From a virus, in the IMG/VR virus record IMGVR_UViG_3300046328_000255, positions 1 through 41,307 of that record: a DNA stretch of 41,307 bases; one strand, 5' to 3'. A program made the translations under genes and the position numbers. Numbering within the stretch: the first letter of the stretch is position 1; every line of letters begins with the position of its first letter. Shown here one piece after another: positions 24,639-40,085 of this stretch. Below the pieces are notes generated by a model, which saw nothing but the letters and a program-made list of their open reading frames with translations, did no database searches and was not told where the DNA came from.

Positions 24639-24878
24639 ATGACAAAACAAACATCAGTATTTCAGATAAAATATACCACGATTGCGCTAATTGCTTTTAG
24701 CATGGCATCTGGTGCAATTCCAGCGCATTATGCAACAAAATATCATGCCGAATATAAAGAACTAAAATTTGCAGCGCAAAAACAAGATGATATTGAGGGC
24801 AAGAAAACACTTGCAAGTTTGGGCTACGATGCGCCTTTTTACGTTGATTCAACCGAAGCGACACGTTGGGGGCAATAA
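24639..24878 (+). CDS. Small single-pass membrane or exported protein
   Basis: Protein of 79 residues. One hydrophobic segment (about 12-28, TTIALIAFSMASGAIPAHYA) near the N-terminus is followed by a charged tail, so it is either exported or anchored with the C-terminus outside. AGGA precedes the ATG. Its stop overlaps the helicase-methyltransferase start by one base. Function unknown. Confidence 0.68.
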   Translation: MTKQTSVFQIKYTTIALIAFSMASGAIPAHYATKYHAEYKELKFAAQKQDDIEGKKTLASLGYDAPFYVDSTEATRWGQ

Positions 24879-27097
24879 TGGATTATTCAGAATTTCTAGG
24901 AGCTAAAGAATTGGTATTTGATGCAAGCGGTATTGATACTGATTTATCACATGAAAAATTGCTAAATTATCAAAAAGCTATCGGCGAGTGGGCGATCCAA
25001 AAAGGCAAGAGTGCAATATTTGCGGATTGCGGATTGGGTAAGTCTTTTATGTCTATGGCAATATTAGATGCAATTTCAAAGCATATTAATAAACCTGCTT
25101 TACTTATAACTCCATTGCAGATTTTAGGACAGTTTATAGATGAAGAAGCTCCGAAGTGGGGATATACAATAAACAATCTACGTACTAACCCAGTTGATGC
25201 GGGGATTAACATTATCAACTATGAGCAATTAGAAAAACTCAATCCTGATGATTTTGGAGTGGTTTTCCTTGATGAAAGCTCAGTATTGAAATCTTTAAGC
25301 GGCAAATACAAAACTCTGCTTATTGAGTCATTTAAGAACGTGCATTATCGTTTTTGCGGTACTGCAACACCTTCACCAAACGACTTTATGGAACTTGGCA
25401 ATCATTCTGAATTTCTAGGCATTATGACTAGGGTTGAAATGCTTGCTATGTTTTTCACACATGACGGAGGGGATACTGCCAAATGGAAGCTCAAAGGACA
25501 CGCTAAAAAGAAGTTTTGGCAATGGCTATCTACTTGGTGCGTTGTGGTTACTGAGCCGAAAGATATAGGTTTTGATGAGCATAATTTTGTTAAGCCTCCT
25601 ATGTTTGAAACTCACCGCCATTTATTGGATATTCAGAAAAACAATTTTGATGACGGATATTTGATTAATTTGCCAGCTCAAGGATTAACTGAAAGGCTAA
25701 AAGAGCGCAGAAATACAATTCAAGATAGATGTCAATATACGGCTGATTTAGTCAATAACTCAAACGAGAAGTGGGTTATATGGTGCGAGCTGAATGATGA
25801 GGCTGATTTACTTGTGAAATTGATTGAGGGCGGTGTTAATCTATCGGGAAGCGATAAAGATGATGCGAAGCTCAAAAAGCTGCGGGATTTTAAGCATGGT
25901 GATACTAAATGCCTAATTAGTAAACCAAAAATCGCTGCATTTGGCTTAAATTGGCAACATTGTCATAATATGGTTTTCTGCTCACTTTCAGATAGTTATG
26001 AGCAATTTTATCAAGCAGTAAGACGATGCTATCGTTTTGGGCAAGATAAGATTGTAAATGTTCACTTGGTTTTATCTGAAACGCAAATGGAAGTTTATAA
26101 CAATATCCAGCGCAAACACGCTAACGCCGAAGAAATGAAAAAATCATTAATTGTAGAATTTAATGAATCTGGATTTAACATCAACTCAACCAAAAGGGAT
26201 TCTATGACTTATTTCGAAAGCCACGACAAAACAGAAAACTACGATATTTATAATGCTGATTGCTGTGAAGTGATTAAAAGATTGCCAGATAATAGCCTGC
26301 ATTATTCAATATTTAGTCCACCATTCGCAAGCCTTTACACTTACTCAAACTCCGAAAGAGATATGGGCAACTGCAAAAGCCATTCTGAATTTTATGCTCA
26401 CTTCAAATATCTTGTTGATGAATTGCACAAAAAAATGATGAATGGGCGTTTAGTTAGCTTCCATTGCATGAATTTACCAACATCAAAGCAAAATGACGGA
26501 TATATCGGCATAACTGATTTTAGAGGTTTGTTGATTAAGATATTCCAAGATGCAGGTTTTGTTTATCATTCTGAGGTTTGTATCTGGAAAGACCCTGTAA
26601 TTGCTATGCAGCGCACTAAGGCACTTGGATTGCTTCATAAGCAGATTAAAAAGAATAGTGCAATGAGCCGCCAAGGCATACCTGATTACTTGGTTACAAT
26701 GCGGAAACTAGGCGATAATCCTGAGCCTGTAAGTCATACGGCTGCGGAGTTTCCTGTTGATGTTTGGCAACAATACGCAAGCCCTATTTGGATGGATATT
26801 AACCCTTCCAAAACGCTACAATATAGCGAGGCGAGGGCGGAAGATGACGAACGCCATATTTGCCCTTTGCAACTTCAAGTTATTGAACGTGCGCTAGATT
26901 TGTGGACGAATATAGGCGATACTGTTTTTAGCCCTTTCATGGGGATAGGTTCAGAGGGTTATGTTTCACTTCAAAAGGGGCGCAAGTTTATCGGAACTGA
27001 GTTAAAACCTAGCTATTATGCAGTTGCTAAAAAGAACTTGGACTGGATAGAAAATAATCAACAACTTGATTTATTCAAAGTGGCATCGGGGGAATAA
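24878..27097 (+). CDS. SNF2-type helicase fused to a DNA methyltransferase
   Basis: Protein of 739 residues from the ATG at 24878. The N-terminal ATPase has Walker A DCGLGKS (50-56), a DE motif FLDESS (130-135), GTATPSPND (161-169) and a motif VI QAVRRCYRFGQ near 390, as in SNF2-like helicases. The C-terminal half is a beta-class amino-methyltransferase: catalytic SPPF (480-483) comes before the SAM-binding FSPFMGIG (684-691), so it modifies N6-adenine or N4-cytosine. No endonuclease domain is seen. Such fusions are found in phages and may protect DNA from host restriction or act in DNA processing. An upstream Met at 24866 is less likely because it lies inside the previous gene. Confidence 0.9.
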   Translation: MDYSEFLGAKELVFDASGIDTDLSHEKLLNYQKAIGEWAIQKGKSAIFADCGLGKSFMSMAILDAISKHINKPALLITPLQILGQFIDEEAPKWGYTINNLRTNPVDAGINIINYEQLEKLNPDDFGVVFLDESSVLKSLSGKYKTLLIESFKNVHYRFCGTATPSPNDFMELGNHSEFLGIMTRVEMLAMFFTHDGGDTAKWKLKGHAKKKFWQWLSTWCVVVTEPKDIGFDEHNFVKPPMFETHRHLLDIQKNNFDDGYLINLPAQGLTERLKERRNTIQDRCQYTADLVNNSNEKWVIWCELNDEADLLVKLIEGGVNLSGSDKDDAKLKKLRDFKHGDTKCLISKPKIAAFGLNWQHCHNMVFCSLSDSYEQFYQAVRRCYRFGQDKIVNVHLVLSETQMEVYNNIQRKHANAEEMKKSLIVEFNESGFNINSTKRDSMTYFESHDKTENYDIYNADCCEVIKRLPDNSLHYSIFSPPFASLYTYSNSERDMGNCKSHSEFYAHFKYLVDELHKKMMNGRLVSFHCMNLPTSKQNDGYIGITDFRGLLIKIFQDAGFVYHSEVCIWKDPVIAMQRTKALGLLHKQIKKNSAMSRQGIPDYLVTMRKLGDNPEPVSHTAAEFPVDVWQQYASPIWMDINPSKTLQYSEARAEDDERHICPLQLQVIERALDLWTNIGDTVFSPFMGIGSEGYVSLQKGRKFIGTELKPSYYAVAKKNLDWIENNQQLDLFKVASGE

Positions 27098-35329: not shown

Positions 35330-35539
35330 AAAGTGCTAATTTACCTCTTAAAAAGACTTGGATTAAAGCAATCCGATTTGGCAAAAATGTGCCAAACACA
35401 ACGCAAAACTGTGAATTGCTGGGTTAAAGGACATACTCGCACTCCAGCTATAGTTCTGCTACACTTAAAACTGTTGCTTGATATTAAAACTTTCAGCGAT
35501 GACTTGATAAAATTCAAAGAGGTGAAAGATGCATCATAA
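35321..35539 (+). CDS. HTH regulator (Cro/CI-like) before the packaging genes
   Basis: Protein of 72 residues from ATG 35321; an upstream in-frame Met would run through the promoter gap. Residues 10-45 (KRLGLKQSDLAKMCQTQRKTVNCWVKGHTRTP) are a clear helix-turn-helix. It overlaps the small terminase by 11 bases. Candidate switch for late genes, with a palindrome at its own start. Confidence 0.72.
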   Translation: MHNKVLIYLLKRLGLKQSDLAKMCQTQRKTVNCWVKGHTRTPAIVLLHLKLLLDIKTFSDDLIKFKEVKDAS

Positions 35540-36062
35540 CGGCAACAAAGGAAAGCGGGGCAAAAATCCAAACGTGCCTATAAACCAAGTCATAGTAATT
35601 GATAACGACACAGGCGAGAAAGCCAAAACAAAAACATGGTGGACTCATAGACGTGTATTTGATGATGCACAGCAACTTGAAACGCTTGGACGTGAGTACA
35701 TAGAAGCTTGGGAAGCCGAGCGTAGACCTTTGACTATGATAGGCTTAATACTCTATCTTGGTGTAAACCGTTCAACTTTTGCTAAATATCTTAATGGTGA
35801 TTATGATGAAATTGACCCTAACTTCTCCAACACGTGTGCAACATTAAAAGGTTATATTGAGATGCAGAAATTTGAGAAAGCATTGAGGGGTGAATACGTT
35901 GCACAAGTAGCTATGTTTGATTTGAGATTTAATCATGGATATAAAGATGAAGCCGAAAAAGAAAAGCCAGTTAAAAGCCTCGCTGATATTGATGACTCAG
36001 ATTTGACCGCAGAGCAAGCGTTTTTAATTTGGAAAGAGGAGTTAAAGAAAATTGAAAAGTAA
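35529..36062 (+). CDS. Terminase small subunit
   Basis: Protein of 177 residues. PLTMIGLILYLGVNRSTFAKYLNG (about 58-81) is the N-terminal DNA-recognition helix-turn-helix of gp3-type small terminases, and EKALRGEYVAQVAMFDLRFNHGYKD (about 115-139) is the family's oligomerisation block. It recognises the packaging site and activates the large subunit encoded next, whose TTG start overlaps this gene's end. Confidence 0.88.
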   Translation: MHHNGNKGKRGKNPNVPINQVIVIDNDTGEKAKTKTWWTHRRVFDDAQQLETLGREYIEAWEAERRPLTMIGLILYLGVNRSTFAKYLNGDYDEIDPNFSNTCATLKGYIEMQKFEKALRGEYVAQVAMFDLRFNHGYKDEAEKEKPVKSLADIDDSDLTAEQAFLIWKEELKKIEK

Positions 36063-38715
36063 CCTTCCGCCTGATTATAAAGTTGAGAATTTGAGGCGGA
36101 TAAAATTATGCCGTTCAATTCGTGAAAATCCAAACTTTGCGAAAGCGTGCAAGAAATTCTATAGCGAAAATCCGATTGAATGGATTAATGATTTTTGCGT
36201 GACTTATAATCCAAGAGCAAAAAAGCCGCTGCCTAGATTAATGCCGTTTGTGCTATTCCCAAAACAAATTGATATGGTTTTATGGCTGCAAGATTGTATC
36301 CGTGATGGTGAGGGCGGGTTATGTGAAAAAACTCGTGATATGGGTGCAACGTGGTTATGCTGTGCTTTCTCTATCTGGTTATGGCTTTTTTATGATGGTG
36401 CAAGTATAGGCTGGGGAAGCCGCAAGGAAAGTTTAGTTGATAGGATTGGCGACCCTGACTCTATTTTTGAGAAAATGCGAATGATTTTGCGCTATTTGCC
36501 AGATTTTATGTTGCCGAATGGATTTGAGATTGCCAAGCACGCAACCTATATGAAAATCGTTAATCCAGTTACAGGTGCAACAATAACAGGCGAGTCAGGC
36601 GATAATATCGGGAGGGGTGGGCGTAGCCTTATGTATTTCAAAGATGAGGCATTGACATTAAACTCTAAAATCCTTACAGTAGAGGGCTGGAAGCTTATGG
36701 GGGATTTGAATATGAAAGATAAGGTTATAGGGTTGAATGGTAAAAGCCAAAATATCACAGGCATAAACGATGCGGGTGAATATGAGATATATCGGGTGGG
36801 TTTTAGTGATGGAACTTTTGTAGAGTGCAGTCCTAATCATTTGTGGACATTAAACAAAGTTTTGGGAAAAAAAGAGCAAGTCACTTTAAGAACAAACGAA
36901 TTAAGCGAAACTTACAAATACATCACACCTGAAAAAAAGATAATGTATAAATTCCGCTTGCCCCTTGCCGATGCAATAGAATTTCCAAAAGAAGAACTTC
37001 CTTTACACCCTTACGTGGTGGGTGCTTTAATTGGCGATGGTGGAGTTTCACAAGTACCACACAATAGTCCCAAATTCACAAGTATGGACGATGAAGTGAT
37101 TGATTATCTTGCTAAATGCTTACCTGATTATTGCGTTATGAAAAAAGCCGCAAGATATGATTATAGGTTGAATGATGTGCGTGGCAGAATGGGCTGGAAG
37201 CATAAAAGCCGCATTAGGCAAGCGATACTTGACATTGGGTTAGCTGGAAAGCGTGCATGGGAAAAGTTTATACCAGATATGTATAAATATTCCACAATAG
37301 AGGAAAGAATAGAGTTATTGCAGGGTTTAATGGATACCGATGGAAGTGCAGGAAAAAGTGGCGGCTCATGTGCATACTATACAAGTTCAGAAAAATTGGC
37401 TTTGGACGTAAGATTTTTGGCGGAGTCATTAGGCGGTTATGCCACTATGAAAATTAAAAAGGATAAAAGGGGTTACAGAGACCAATATGTTTTATTTATA
37501 ATTTTACCGACTCATATAAAGCCTTTTCGACTATCAAGAAAATTAGAATTGTACAAAAAAAGAAAGCAAAGCATAGAAAGGGCTGTGACCAGCGTGGAAA
37601 AAACAGGTAGAGTTGAGCCTGTGAGATGTATATCTGTAGACTCAAAAGAAAGTTTATATCTCACTAATAATTGCATACCTACGCATAATTGCGCTCATTA
37701 CGAAAGACCAGAATTAATTGAGGCGGCTTTATCTGATAATACAGATGTTCAGATAGATATTTCCAGCGTGAGGGGAACTAACAACGTATTTTATCGGAGG
37801 CGCATAGCTGGCGAGATGTGGCAAGCTGGCGAGGCAATGGAAGCAGGGCGCACAAAGGTTTTTATTATGGATTGGCGTGACCATCCGCTCAAAACGCAAG
37901 AATGGTATGATTTAAGGCGGAAAAAAGCGGAGGCGGAGGGGCTTTTGCATGTATTCGCTCAAGAGGTGGATAGGGATTATTCAGCTTCCGTTGATAGAAT
38001 TATTATTCCAGCGCAATGGGTTAAAGCTGCGATCGATGCTCATGAAAGGCTCAAAATATCTGATAGTGGTGATAAAATGCTGGCAATGGACGTTGCAGAC
38101 GAGGGCGGGGATAAAAACGCAGTTGGTATTCGTCATGGCGTTATTCTCAAATATGCGGAGGCATGGGGCGAGGGTGATACTGGATATTCCGCAAAACGAG
38201 CTATTGCGCTGGCGCAAGAATGGGGCGTACATGAGTTTTACTATGACTCAATCGGAGTTGGTGCGGGTGTAAAATCTGAAACTAACCGCTTGCGTGATGC
38301 TGGCGCACTTCCGCCCTCAATGCTTATCTTGCCTTGGAACGCAGCGCATAGCCCGCTAAATCCAGATGATAATGTGATACCAGATGACTTTTATAGCCCA
38401 ACAAATGCGGATTTTTTCTCAAATATCAAAGCGCAAGCGTGGTGGAATTTAAGAACTCGCTTTTATAAAACATGGCGCATGATTGAGCATGGCGATGCAT
38501 ATCCGCATGAGGATTTAATTAGCCTTGACTCCTCTATGGCTTGTATTCATGAATTGGTTATGGAGCTTTCACAGCCGACACAAAATTACAACGGCGCAGG
38601 AAAATTGGTGGTAGATAAAAAGCCTGATGGTGGTAAATCTCCGAATCTTGCAGATTGTGTTGCAATGGTTTATACTCCAGTTAGAGAAGTTTCAATCCTT
38701 GATGTTTTATATTAA
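36052..38715 (+). CDS. Terminase large subunit interrupted by an intein
   Basis: 887-residue precursor with a TTG start preceded by GGAG; it should splice to about 540 residues. The ATPase has a Walker-A-like KTRDMGATW (93-101) and Walker B LMYFKDE (193-199); the RNase H-like nuclease shows MLAMDVADEGG (D680), YDSIGVGAG and a late NLADCVAM. Residues 200-546 are an in-frame intein. Removing it joins FKDE to CAHYERP, restoring the DE-x-AH stretch of the family. The enzyme powers DNA packaging through the portal and cuts the concatemer. Packaging would be dead without splicing. Confidence 0.93.
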   Translation: MKSNLPPDYKVENLRRIKLCRSIRENPNFAKACKKFYSENPIEWINDFCVTYNPRAKKPLPRLMPFVLFPKQIDMVLWLQDCIRDGEGGLCEKTRDMGATWLCCAFSIWLWLFYDGASIGWGSRKESLVDRIGDPDSIFEKMRMILRYLPDFMLPNGFEIAKHATYMKIVNPVTGATITGESGDNIGRGGRSLMYFKDEALTLNSKILTVEGWKLMGDLNMKDKVIGLNGKSQNITGINDAGEYEIYRVGFSDGTFVECSPNHLWTLNKVLGKKEQVTLRTNELSETYKYITPEKKIMYKFRLPLADAIEFPKEELPLHPYVVGALIGDGGVSQVPHNSPKFTSMDDEVIDYLAKCLPDYCVMKKAARYDYRLNDVRGRMGWKHKSRIRQAILDIGLAGKRAWEKFIPDMYKYSTIEERIELLQGLMDTDGSAGKSGGSCAYYTSSEKLALDVRFLAESLGGYATMKIKKDKRGYRDQYVLFIILPTHIKPFRLSRKLELYKKRKQSIERAVTSVEKTGRVEPVRCISVDSKESLYLTNNCIPTHNCAHYERPELIEAALSDNTDVQIDISSVRGTNNVFYRRRIAGEMWQAGEAMEAGRTKVFIMDWRDHPLKTQEWYDLRRKKAEAEGLLHVFAQEVDRDYSASVDRIIIPAQWVKAAIDAHERLKISDSGDKMLAMDVADEGGDKNAVGIRHGVILKYAEAWGEGDTGYSAKRAIALAQEWGVHEFYYDSIGVGAGVKSETNRLRDAGALPPSMLILPWNAAHSPLNPDDNVIPDDFYSPTNADFFSNIKAQAWWNLRTRFYKTWRMIEHGDAYPHEDLISLDSSMACIHELVMELSQPTQNYNGAGKLVVDKKPDGGKSPNLADCVAMVYTPVREVSILDVLY
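36649..37689 (+). mobile_element. Intein with LAGLIDADG homing endonuclease inside the terminase
   Basis: 347 residues. Splice block A is ALTLNSKIL with Ala at position 1; block B is CSPNH (His263 of the precursor); the endonuclease has two LAGLIDADG helices, VGALIGDGG (323-331) and QGLMDTDG (424-431); the end is NCIPTHN followed by Cys as first residue of the C-extein. Ala in place of Cys1/Ser1 is known from KlbA-type inteins that begin splicing by direct attack from the +1 Cys. The domain inserts just after the Walker B acidic pair. Confidence 0.92.
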
Positions 38716-38717
38716 TT

Positions 38718-40085
38718 ATGAAAAAAGCCAAAACCACAACCGCTTTGACTGAGATTAACAATTCTATGGAGTCGGTTAATCAGCTTTTGAATTTGGGCGG
38801 GGCTTTCGCTCAACTATCCAAAAAAGATACGCTTTACCTGAATAATCGCTGGAATTTCATATCCAACGATAGGCAGCTTTTATCGCAGATTTATGTTGAG
38901 CATGGCATTGTACAAACGCTAATTGACCAGCCAGTAGAAGATGCTTTCAGAACTGGATTAGAAGTAAAATCAGGAGAACTTGATGCAGAGGATTTAGAGA
39001 AATTAGAAATCTATATTGAAAATAACAACGTGATAAAAACGCTCATGCAAGCTATGAAATGGGCAAGGCTTTATGGCGGCGGTGCGGTTATGGTGGTTAC
39101 AAACCAAGACCCTGCAAGCCCTTTTGAGATTGATAAAATCACGGAAAAAACCCGCATTGCTTATAAAGCGGTGGATATGTGGGAGCTATATACGACCACA
39201 TTTAGCACCGAGCAAGGCTATATTTTTGACGAAGGGCAAGAATATTATATGTATTATGGGCGCAGAGTTCATAAGAGCCGTGTTTATCGTGTTGAGGGGA
39301 AAGAAGCCCCTTCATTCTTGCGTCCACAGTTGCGAGGCTGGGGCATGAGCGTTGTAGAAAGGCTCGTGCGTTCACTCAATCAATATCTGAAAAATCAAGA
39401 TGTTATATTTGAATTACTTGATGAGGCAAAAGTTGATGTTTACAAGATGAAAGGCTTTAACACGTCATTAATGACCAGTCAAGGCAGCGCAGGTGTGGCA
39501 AGAAGGATACAAAATGCCAATATGGTGAAAAATTATAATAATGCGATTGTAATGGACACAGGCGATGAATACGAGCAAAAAACCATGACATTTACAGGAT
39601 TGGCAGAAATGCTAATTCAGATTAGGCAAGGCATTGCGGCTGATTTGCGTATGCCAGTTACAAAATTATTCGGAATTTCAAGCGCAGGATTTAGTTCAGG
39701 CGAAGATGAAATTGAGAATTACAATGCAATGGTGGAAAGCGAAATTCGCTCAAAATGCAAGGGTGTGATAGTTGATTTACTTGGTATTGCTTGCCAGAAA
39801 GAGTTTGGATTTATCCCCGATGATTTGCAGCTTGAGTTTGAGTCATTACGGATTATGTCATCAAAAGAAGAGGAAGAAGTTAAAACTTCACAATTCAATC
39901 GTGTAATGGCAGCATATACAGCAGGGCTTATTGAAGATGTGGACGCAAAGGCAGCGTTAAATCGTGACTCGTTGTTGCCAGTTGAGATTGACGAGGATAC
40001 ACCAGCGAATGAGCCGCTTGGTGCAGAATATAGCATTAAAAACCCGCCTAATTTTGAGGCAAAAACTAACCAAAAAGGAAAATAA
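38718..40085 (+). CDS. Portal protein, DUF1073 family
   Basis: Protein of 455 residues. NDRQLLSQIYVEHGIVQTLIDQPVEDAFRTG, AMKWARLYGGGAVMVV, then VYRVEGKEAP and ADLRMPVTKLFGISSAGFSSGEDEIENY are DUF1073 portal signatures. It forms the dodecameric DNA gate at the capsid vertex. It directly follows the terminase; the usual next gene (MuF) is displaced by the fibre block. Some databases name this family after Acb1; nothing here suggests that activity. Confidence 0.9.
   Translation: MKKAKTTTALTEINNSMESVNQLLNLGGAFAQLSKKDTLYLNNRWNFISNDRQLLSQIYVEHGIVQTLIDQPVEDAFRTGLEVKSGELDAEDLEKLEIYIENNNVIKTLMQAMKWARLYGGGAVMVVTNQDPASPFEIDKITEKTRIAYKAVDMWELYTTTFSTEQGYIFDEGQEYYMYYGRRVHKSRVYRVEGKEAPSFLRPQLRGWGMSVVERLVRSLNQYLKNQDVIFELLDEAKVDVYKMKGFNTSLMTSQGSAGVARRIQNANMVKNYNNAIVMDTGDEYEQKTMTFTGLAEMLIQIRQGIAADLRMPVTKLFGISSAGFSSGEDEIENYNAMVESEIRSKCKGVIVDLLGIACQKEFGFIPDDLQLEFESLRIMSSKEEEEVKTSQFNRVMAAYTAGLIEDVDAKAALNRDSLLPVEIDEDTPANEPLGAEYSIKNPPNFEAKTNQKGK

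Follow-up and report, generated by a model that had tools for sequence, protein, structure and literature searches.

A predicted class 3 homing intein with Cys+1, placed directly after the Walker B glutamate of a phage large terminase

Introduction

What interrupts the ATPase of a phage large terminase (TerL) immediately after the acidic pair of its Walker B motif, and by which chemistry would such an insert leave the protein? The question is raised by IMG/VR record IMGVR_UViG_3300046328_000255, a 41.3-kb virus contig with contractile-tail genes, which was analysed as one stretch of 41,307 nucleotides (the window). A preliminary description of this DNA had proposed an Ala1 LAGLIDADG intein that splices like the KlbA intein. 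Here we examine the borders of the insert, its splicing class, the residue that follows it and its mobility.

Results

The terminase gene is open across the insert and its relatives lack it

The terminase gene and its setting comprise the following features:
35529..36062, + strand: small terminase-like gene (GP3_package), upstream of the TerL gene
36052..38715, + strand: gene for the 887-aa TerL precursor, which starts at TTG and reads through the intein
36052..36648, + strand: N-extein, N-terminal part of the ATPase, 199 aa, ending in LMYFKDE; matched by terminase PHROGs
36325..36351, + strand: Walker A-like stretch EKTRDMGAT, from reading of the sequence
36628..36648, + strand: Walker B stretch LMYFKDE, whose Asp-Glu pair forms the final two residues of the N-extein
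36649..37689, + strand: predicted class 3 intein, 347 aa, Ala1 to Asn347
37690..38712, + strand: C-extein, remaining ATPase and nuclease domain, 341 aa, starting CAHYERP
38718..40085, + strand: portal gene, Phage_portal_3 (formerly DUF1073), downstream of the TerL gene

The TerL frame is a single clean open frame across its 887 codons, and at the junctions the precursor reads ...GRSLMYFKDE / ALTLNSK...CIPTHN / CAHYERP..., so that residues 1-199 and 547-887 are the terminase halves and residues 200-546 the insert. The N-extein matched 128 phage records (top identity 58%) and was recognised by PHROGs, and the C-extein matched the solved TerL nuclease structures 8dkr and 4idh in the PDB; taken singly, neither extein was recognised by Pfam. 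We take EKTRDMGAT to be the Walker A motif and LMYFKDE to be the Walker B motif, assignments that come from general knowledge of terminases; the KDE of the latter was unchanged across 12 aligned alleles. No tRNA and no second LAGLIDADG_3 domain were found within the window. Elsewhere in the window, a single 743-aa frame (24866-27097) fuses a SNF2-type helicase to an N6/N4 DNA methylase.

Intein and LAGLIDADG profiles hit the insert and not its flanks (Pfam LAGLIDADG_3, E=1.3e-10), which upholds the proposal of an Ala1 LAGLIDADG intein at 36649-37689, and class 3 DnaB inteins from the PDB aligned over insert residues 1 to 347. The general Pfam Intein_splicing model scored the insert under its cut-off; a model based on class 1 inteins might behave in this way on a class 3 intein.

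The flanks (the N-terminal one to residue 199, the C-terminal one from its residue 1 or 2) matched adjacent stretches of intein-free phage terminases, and in Rhizobium phage RHph_TM26 the end of one match and the start of the other lay one codon apart, a clean joining. YFKDE-S-AHYE was read in three intein-free phage terminases, and the DNA of Rhizobium phage P106B showed Ser at its empty site. A pattern scan of IMG/VR for YFKDE-x-AHY[DE] returned at least 120 intein-free sites; among the matches listed, x was Ser in 104, Ala in 16 and Cys in none. Likewise, a search of viral sequences for Cys at an uninterrupted junction, KDE-C-AH[YF][DE], found none. Given these empty sites with Ser or Ala, excising exactly 36649-37689 restores the terminase, with Cys replacing the Ser or Ala of its relatives. 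The borders first read from the open frame (residues 199, 546 and 547) thus proved exact, and the insertion point directly after the Walker B Asp-Glu pair is borne out by intein-free relatives that read DE-(Ser/Ala)-AH without interruption.

Ala is unable to act as a branch nucleophile, and empty alleles with Ala+1 may be hard to invade functionally, unless conversion extends into the flank. In Enterobacter phage Mulvp2 (L165:2405-2899), an annotated homing endonuclease gene lies directly before an intein-free terminase gene.

The insert carries the class 3 signature

The residues that bear on the splicing class are these:
36838..36846, + strand: His64-Leu65-Trp66 of block B, with the catalytic His (B:10) and the Trp typical of class 3 (B:12), invariant in siblings
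37627..37629, + strand: Cys327 at position 4 of block F, which is predicted to act first as nucleophile and to hold the first branch point
37681..37689, + strand: Thr345-His346-Asn347, class 3 Thr G:5, penultimate His and terminal Asn

The window intein holds the full Trp-Cys-Thr (WCT) triplet by which class 3 is defined (PMC5222942): W66 (B:12) within NHLW, two residues past His64; C327 (F:4) within PVRCISVD, which aligns with PVRCVEVD in the class 3 DnaB inteins; and T345 (G:5) within PTHN. Position 1 is Ala, which offers no Cys, Ser or Thr nucleophile and was invariant among the sibling alleles compared. The nearest solved relatives were the mycobacterial class 3 DnaB inteins 6rix/6riy/6bs8, in register from Ala1 to THN, and an AlphaFold model of the intein (pLDDT 85.5, pTM 0.85) matched, in the PDB, inteins combining HINT and LAGLIDADG domains, class 3 DnaB inteins, I-DmoI and PI-SceI. 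The SPNH of block B, singled out earlier as a departure from the usual motif, is present in the sequence; it is not unusual, as Ser B:7 is nearly invariant in the siblings.

Relatives at the same junction were found in 12 viral contigs and one bacterial contig from a Glaciecola MAG (L001, L002, L005-L009, L011-L015 and L140, respectively), and the inteins compared were 39-70% identical to that of the window. With a search pattern that fixed the terminal Thr, His and Asn and left Ala1, Trp and Cys free, the siblings had Ser+1 in 13 of 13, Ala1 wherever the start was present, and Trp and Cys wherever those blocks were spanned. The Glaciecola contig (Ser+1) was the one true allele in a scan of a genome collection; three other hits there lay in short frames and were discarded as chance, as was a further candidate, L010.

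A wider scan based on the endonuclease motifs gave 80 related viral inteins, located mostly in the Walker A motif (GK/T) of helicases, terminases and other ATPases. His, Trp and Cys were present in 80 of 80, Thr G:5 in 79, and position 1 was Ala in 65. Three inteins (L191, L233, L235) pair the WCT triplet with Cys or Ser as first residue, which may give them the nucleophiles of class 1 and of class 3 alike. One relative (L226:1501-2649) has Pro1 and ends in LKN in place of THN, with both Thr G:5 and the penultimate His substituted. Many intein-bearing phage terminases and helicases carry the annotation 'DarB-like antirestriction', a label probably transferred via the intein.

These data make it very probable that the insert belongs to class 3 and carries an endonuclease with two LAGLIDADG motifs, lying between the Walker B Glu and the next TerL residue. 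The residue that decides the class is C327 of the intein, which is C526 of the precursor.

The residue after the insert is Cys

The residue that follows the insert is the following:
37690..37692, + strand: Cys+1 (TGC), predicted second branch point; 13/13 sibling alleles have Ser here

Class 3 inteins usually, though not obligatorily, have Ser or Thr at +1, and the window intein deviates from this; Cys+1 is its sole unusual feature. Among 129 distinct class 3 inteins from two scans, the +1 residue was Thr in 105, Ser in 22 and Cys in two (L180 and L247). These two share a junction different from that of the window; in L180 it falls ~60 residues past Walker B, within the window's terminase family. 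Reading 21 phage records one by one added the terminase of Mycobacterium phage Phrappuccino, again with Cys+1. The window, in which the Cys+1 codon is known from a single assembly, is thus one of few independent Cys+1 cases.

Class 3 inteins at this second junction of the window's terminase family occur in L180:1501-2601, L181:1501-2604 and L247:601-1698, where the stretch reads HW / D(P/H)RKD, downstream of Walker B. The Phrappuccino intein (L142:1501-2559) is class 3 and reads GK/AQPL...VTHN/CYG; none of the papers searched names this phage together with an intein.

The intein of Bvi IcmO was the single Cys+1 class 3 example known to the authors of PMC5222942, and its Cys+1 was unable to substitute for Cys F:4. 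On this precedent the window intein should follow the class 3 order, with splicing beginning at internal Cys327 and not by direct attack of Cys+1. In the proposed pathway, Cys327, aided by His64, Trp66 and Thr345, would attack the bond between Glu(-1) and Ala1 and so form the first branched thioester. The N-extein would next pass to Cys+1 as a second branched thioester, cyclisation of Asn347 would release the intein, and an S-to-N shift would leave a terminase reading YFKDE-C-AHYE. We infer that the window intein splices. The insert cuts the catalytic Glu off from what follows in the ATPase, and from this position packaging is likely to depend on splicing, as had been supposed.

Three other explanations of the insert

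The KlbA assignment of the preliminary description turned out to be wrong. The M. jannaschii KlbA intein (class 2) shares both Ala1 and Cys+1 with the window, a combination that class 3 seldom offers, and in a class 2 pathway Cys+1 would attack the N-terminal junction directly without an internal Cys. However, class 2 is defined by the lack of the block F Cys and of the WCT triplet, and the window has both; its sequence neighbours are class 3, and its 13 siblings share the active site but have Ser+1. On the block F Cys, the complete triplet and the class 3 neighbours we rejected KlbA identity, which we now regard as very improbable.

That the 347 residues are an ordinary terminase domain and no intein has next to no probability. 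Homologues carrying them as such were looked for, and instead the site is uninterrupted in at least 120 intein-free homologues, which refutes this reading; moreover, the insert matches inteins of unrelated genes such as helicases. More credible, though still unlikely, is a class 3 intein in which Cys+1 either was misread in sequencing, the true residue being Ser, or is a defect that impairs splicing. The codon comes from one assembly, Cys was absent from the other alleles and from the empty sites, and TGC differs by a single base from AGC, the commonest codon; against this stand 887 codons of clean frame. A class 3 intein with Cys+1 remains the preferred reading.

The intein has moved between terminases

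The endonuclease comprises three features:
36991..37563, + strand: LAGLIDADG homing endonuclease domain with an I-DmoI-like fold, about intein residues 115-305 (limits approximate)
37015..37041, + strand: first LAGLIDADG motif VVGALIGDG, catalytic acid D130
37318..37344, + strand: second LAGLIDADG motif LQGLMDTDG, catalytic acid D231

The earlier remark that two motifs are complete stands, and with D130 and D231 in place the endonuclease looks intact at the level of its sequence; both acids were unchanged in 10 alleles (alignment A2). In the single allele pair that could be measured, because synonymous sites were saturated in the others, the endonuclease domain had a low dN/dS and a low dN, whereas dN was higher in the N-terminal splicing part. 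We infer that the endonuclease still cuts DNA. One sibling (L011:175-1170) has lost both LAGLIDADG acids (VGVLLGAGT, LQGLSDAVSG) and has a shortened endonuclease but retains every splicing residue; by its sequence it reads as a natural endonuclease-dead allele, a decayed state that contrasts with the window.

The intein tree joined the window with L001, L002 and L012 (support 100/99), and the terminase flanks rejected this clade (log-likelihood drop 95.7, p-AU 0.0002 in the AU test). When long-branched L001 was removed, the same test gave a drop of 94.3 and a far smaller p. L009 and L012 were sisters in the terminase tree but not in the intein tree (p 3e-7), and between the window and the clade members the inteins were 67-70% identical, the flanks 45-53%. 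The intein and terminase trees strongly conflict, so the intein has moved between terminases. The insert is probably mobile, and the endonuclease would spread it through cleavage of empty terminase genes at DE-S-AH.

Discussion

Class 3 inteins in mycobacteriophage terminases were described by Kelley et al. (2016), including the Walker B intein TerL1-e of Gaia, which splices, and two further TerL inteins that cut DNA (PMC5050341). We read the Gaia terminase (gp2) as ...SFIILNE/ALALD...VTHN/SHH, with the junction after the Walker B Glu. Like the window intein, TerL1-e is class 3, has Ala1 and LAGLIDADG motifs and sits directly after that Glu (NE/SHH versus DE/CAH); unlike it, TerL1-e has Ser+1 and lies in another terminase family, with an intein identity of 28%. 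The class, position and mobility of the window intein are therefore all of known kinds. The 13 siblings share the terminase family and the codon junction of the window and differ by Ser+1. The mycobacterial DnaB inteins (6rix, 6bs8) share the splicing domain and the WCT triad from Ala1 to Asn, whereas they lack an endonuclease domain, have Ser+1 and reside in a helicase. The Bvi IcmO intein (PMC5222942) is class 3 with Cys+1, so that in both it and the window the two branch points would be thioesters; in contrast to the window intein, it has no endonuclease, being a mini-intein in an IcmO gene carried by a plasmid. What is new here is an intein in this terminase family and a Cys+1 allele inside a Ser+1 clade.

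It is a distant prospect that the change from Ser+1 to Cys+1, by making thioesters of both intermediates, alters splicing control such that the release of active terminase, and hence packaging, could respond to redox state or metals, unlike in the Ser+1 siblings.

With this locus, two terminase families are known in which a class 3 intein has settled at Walker B, a recurrent landing site. It also provides a natural allelic series at a single codon junction, in which one intein clade offers Ser+1 (three alleles, 67-70% identical) versus Cys+1. This series allows a test of why Cys+1 is almost always avoided by class 3 inteins; in the 2016 literature the question had a single example, Bvi IcmO.
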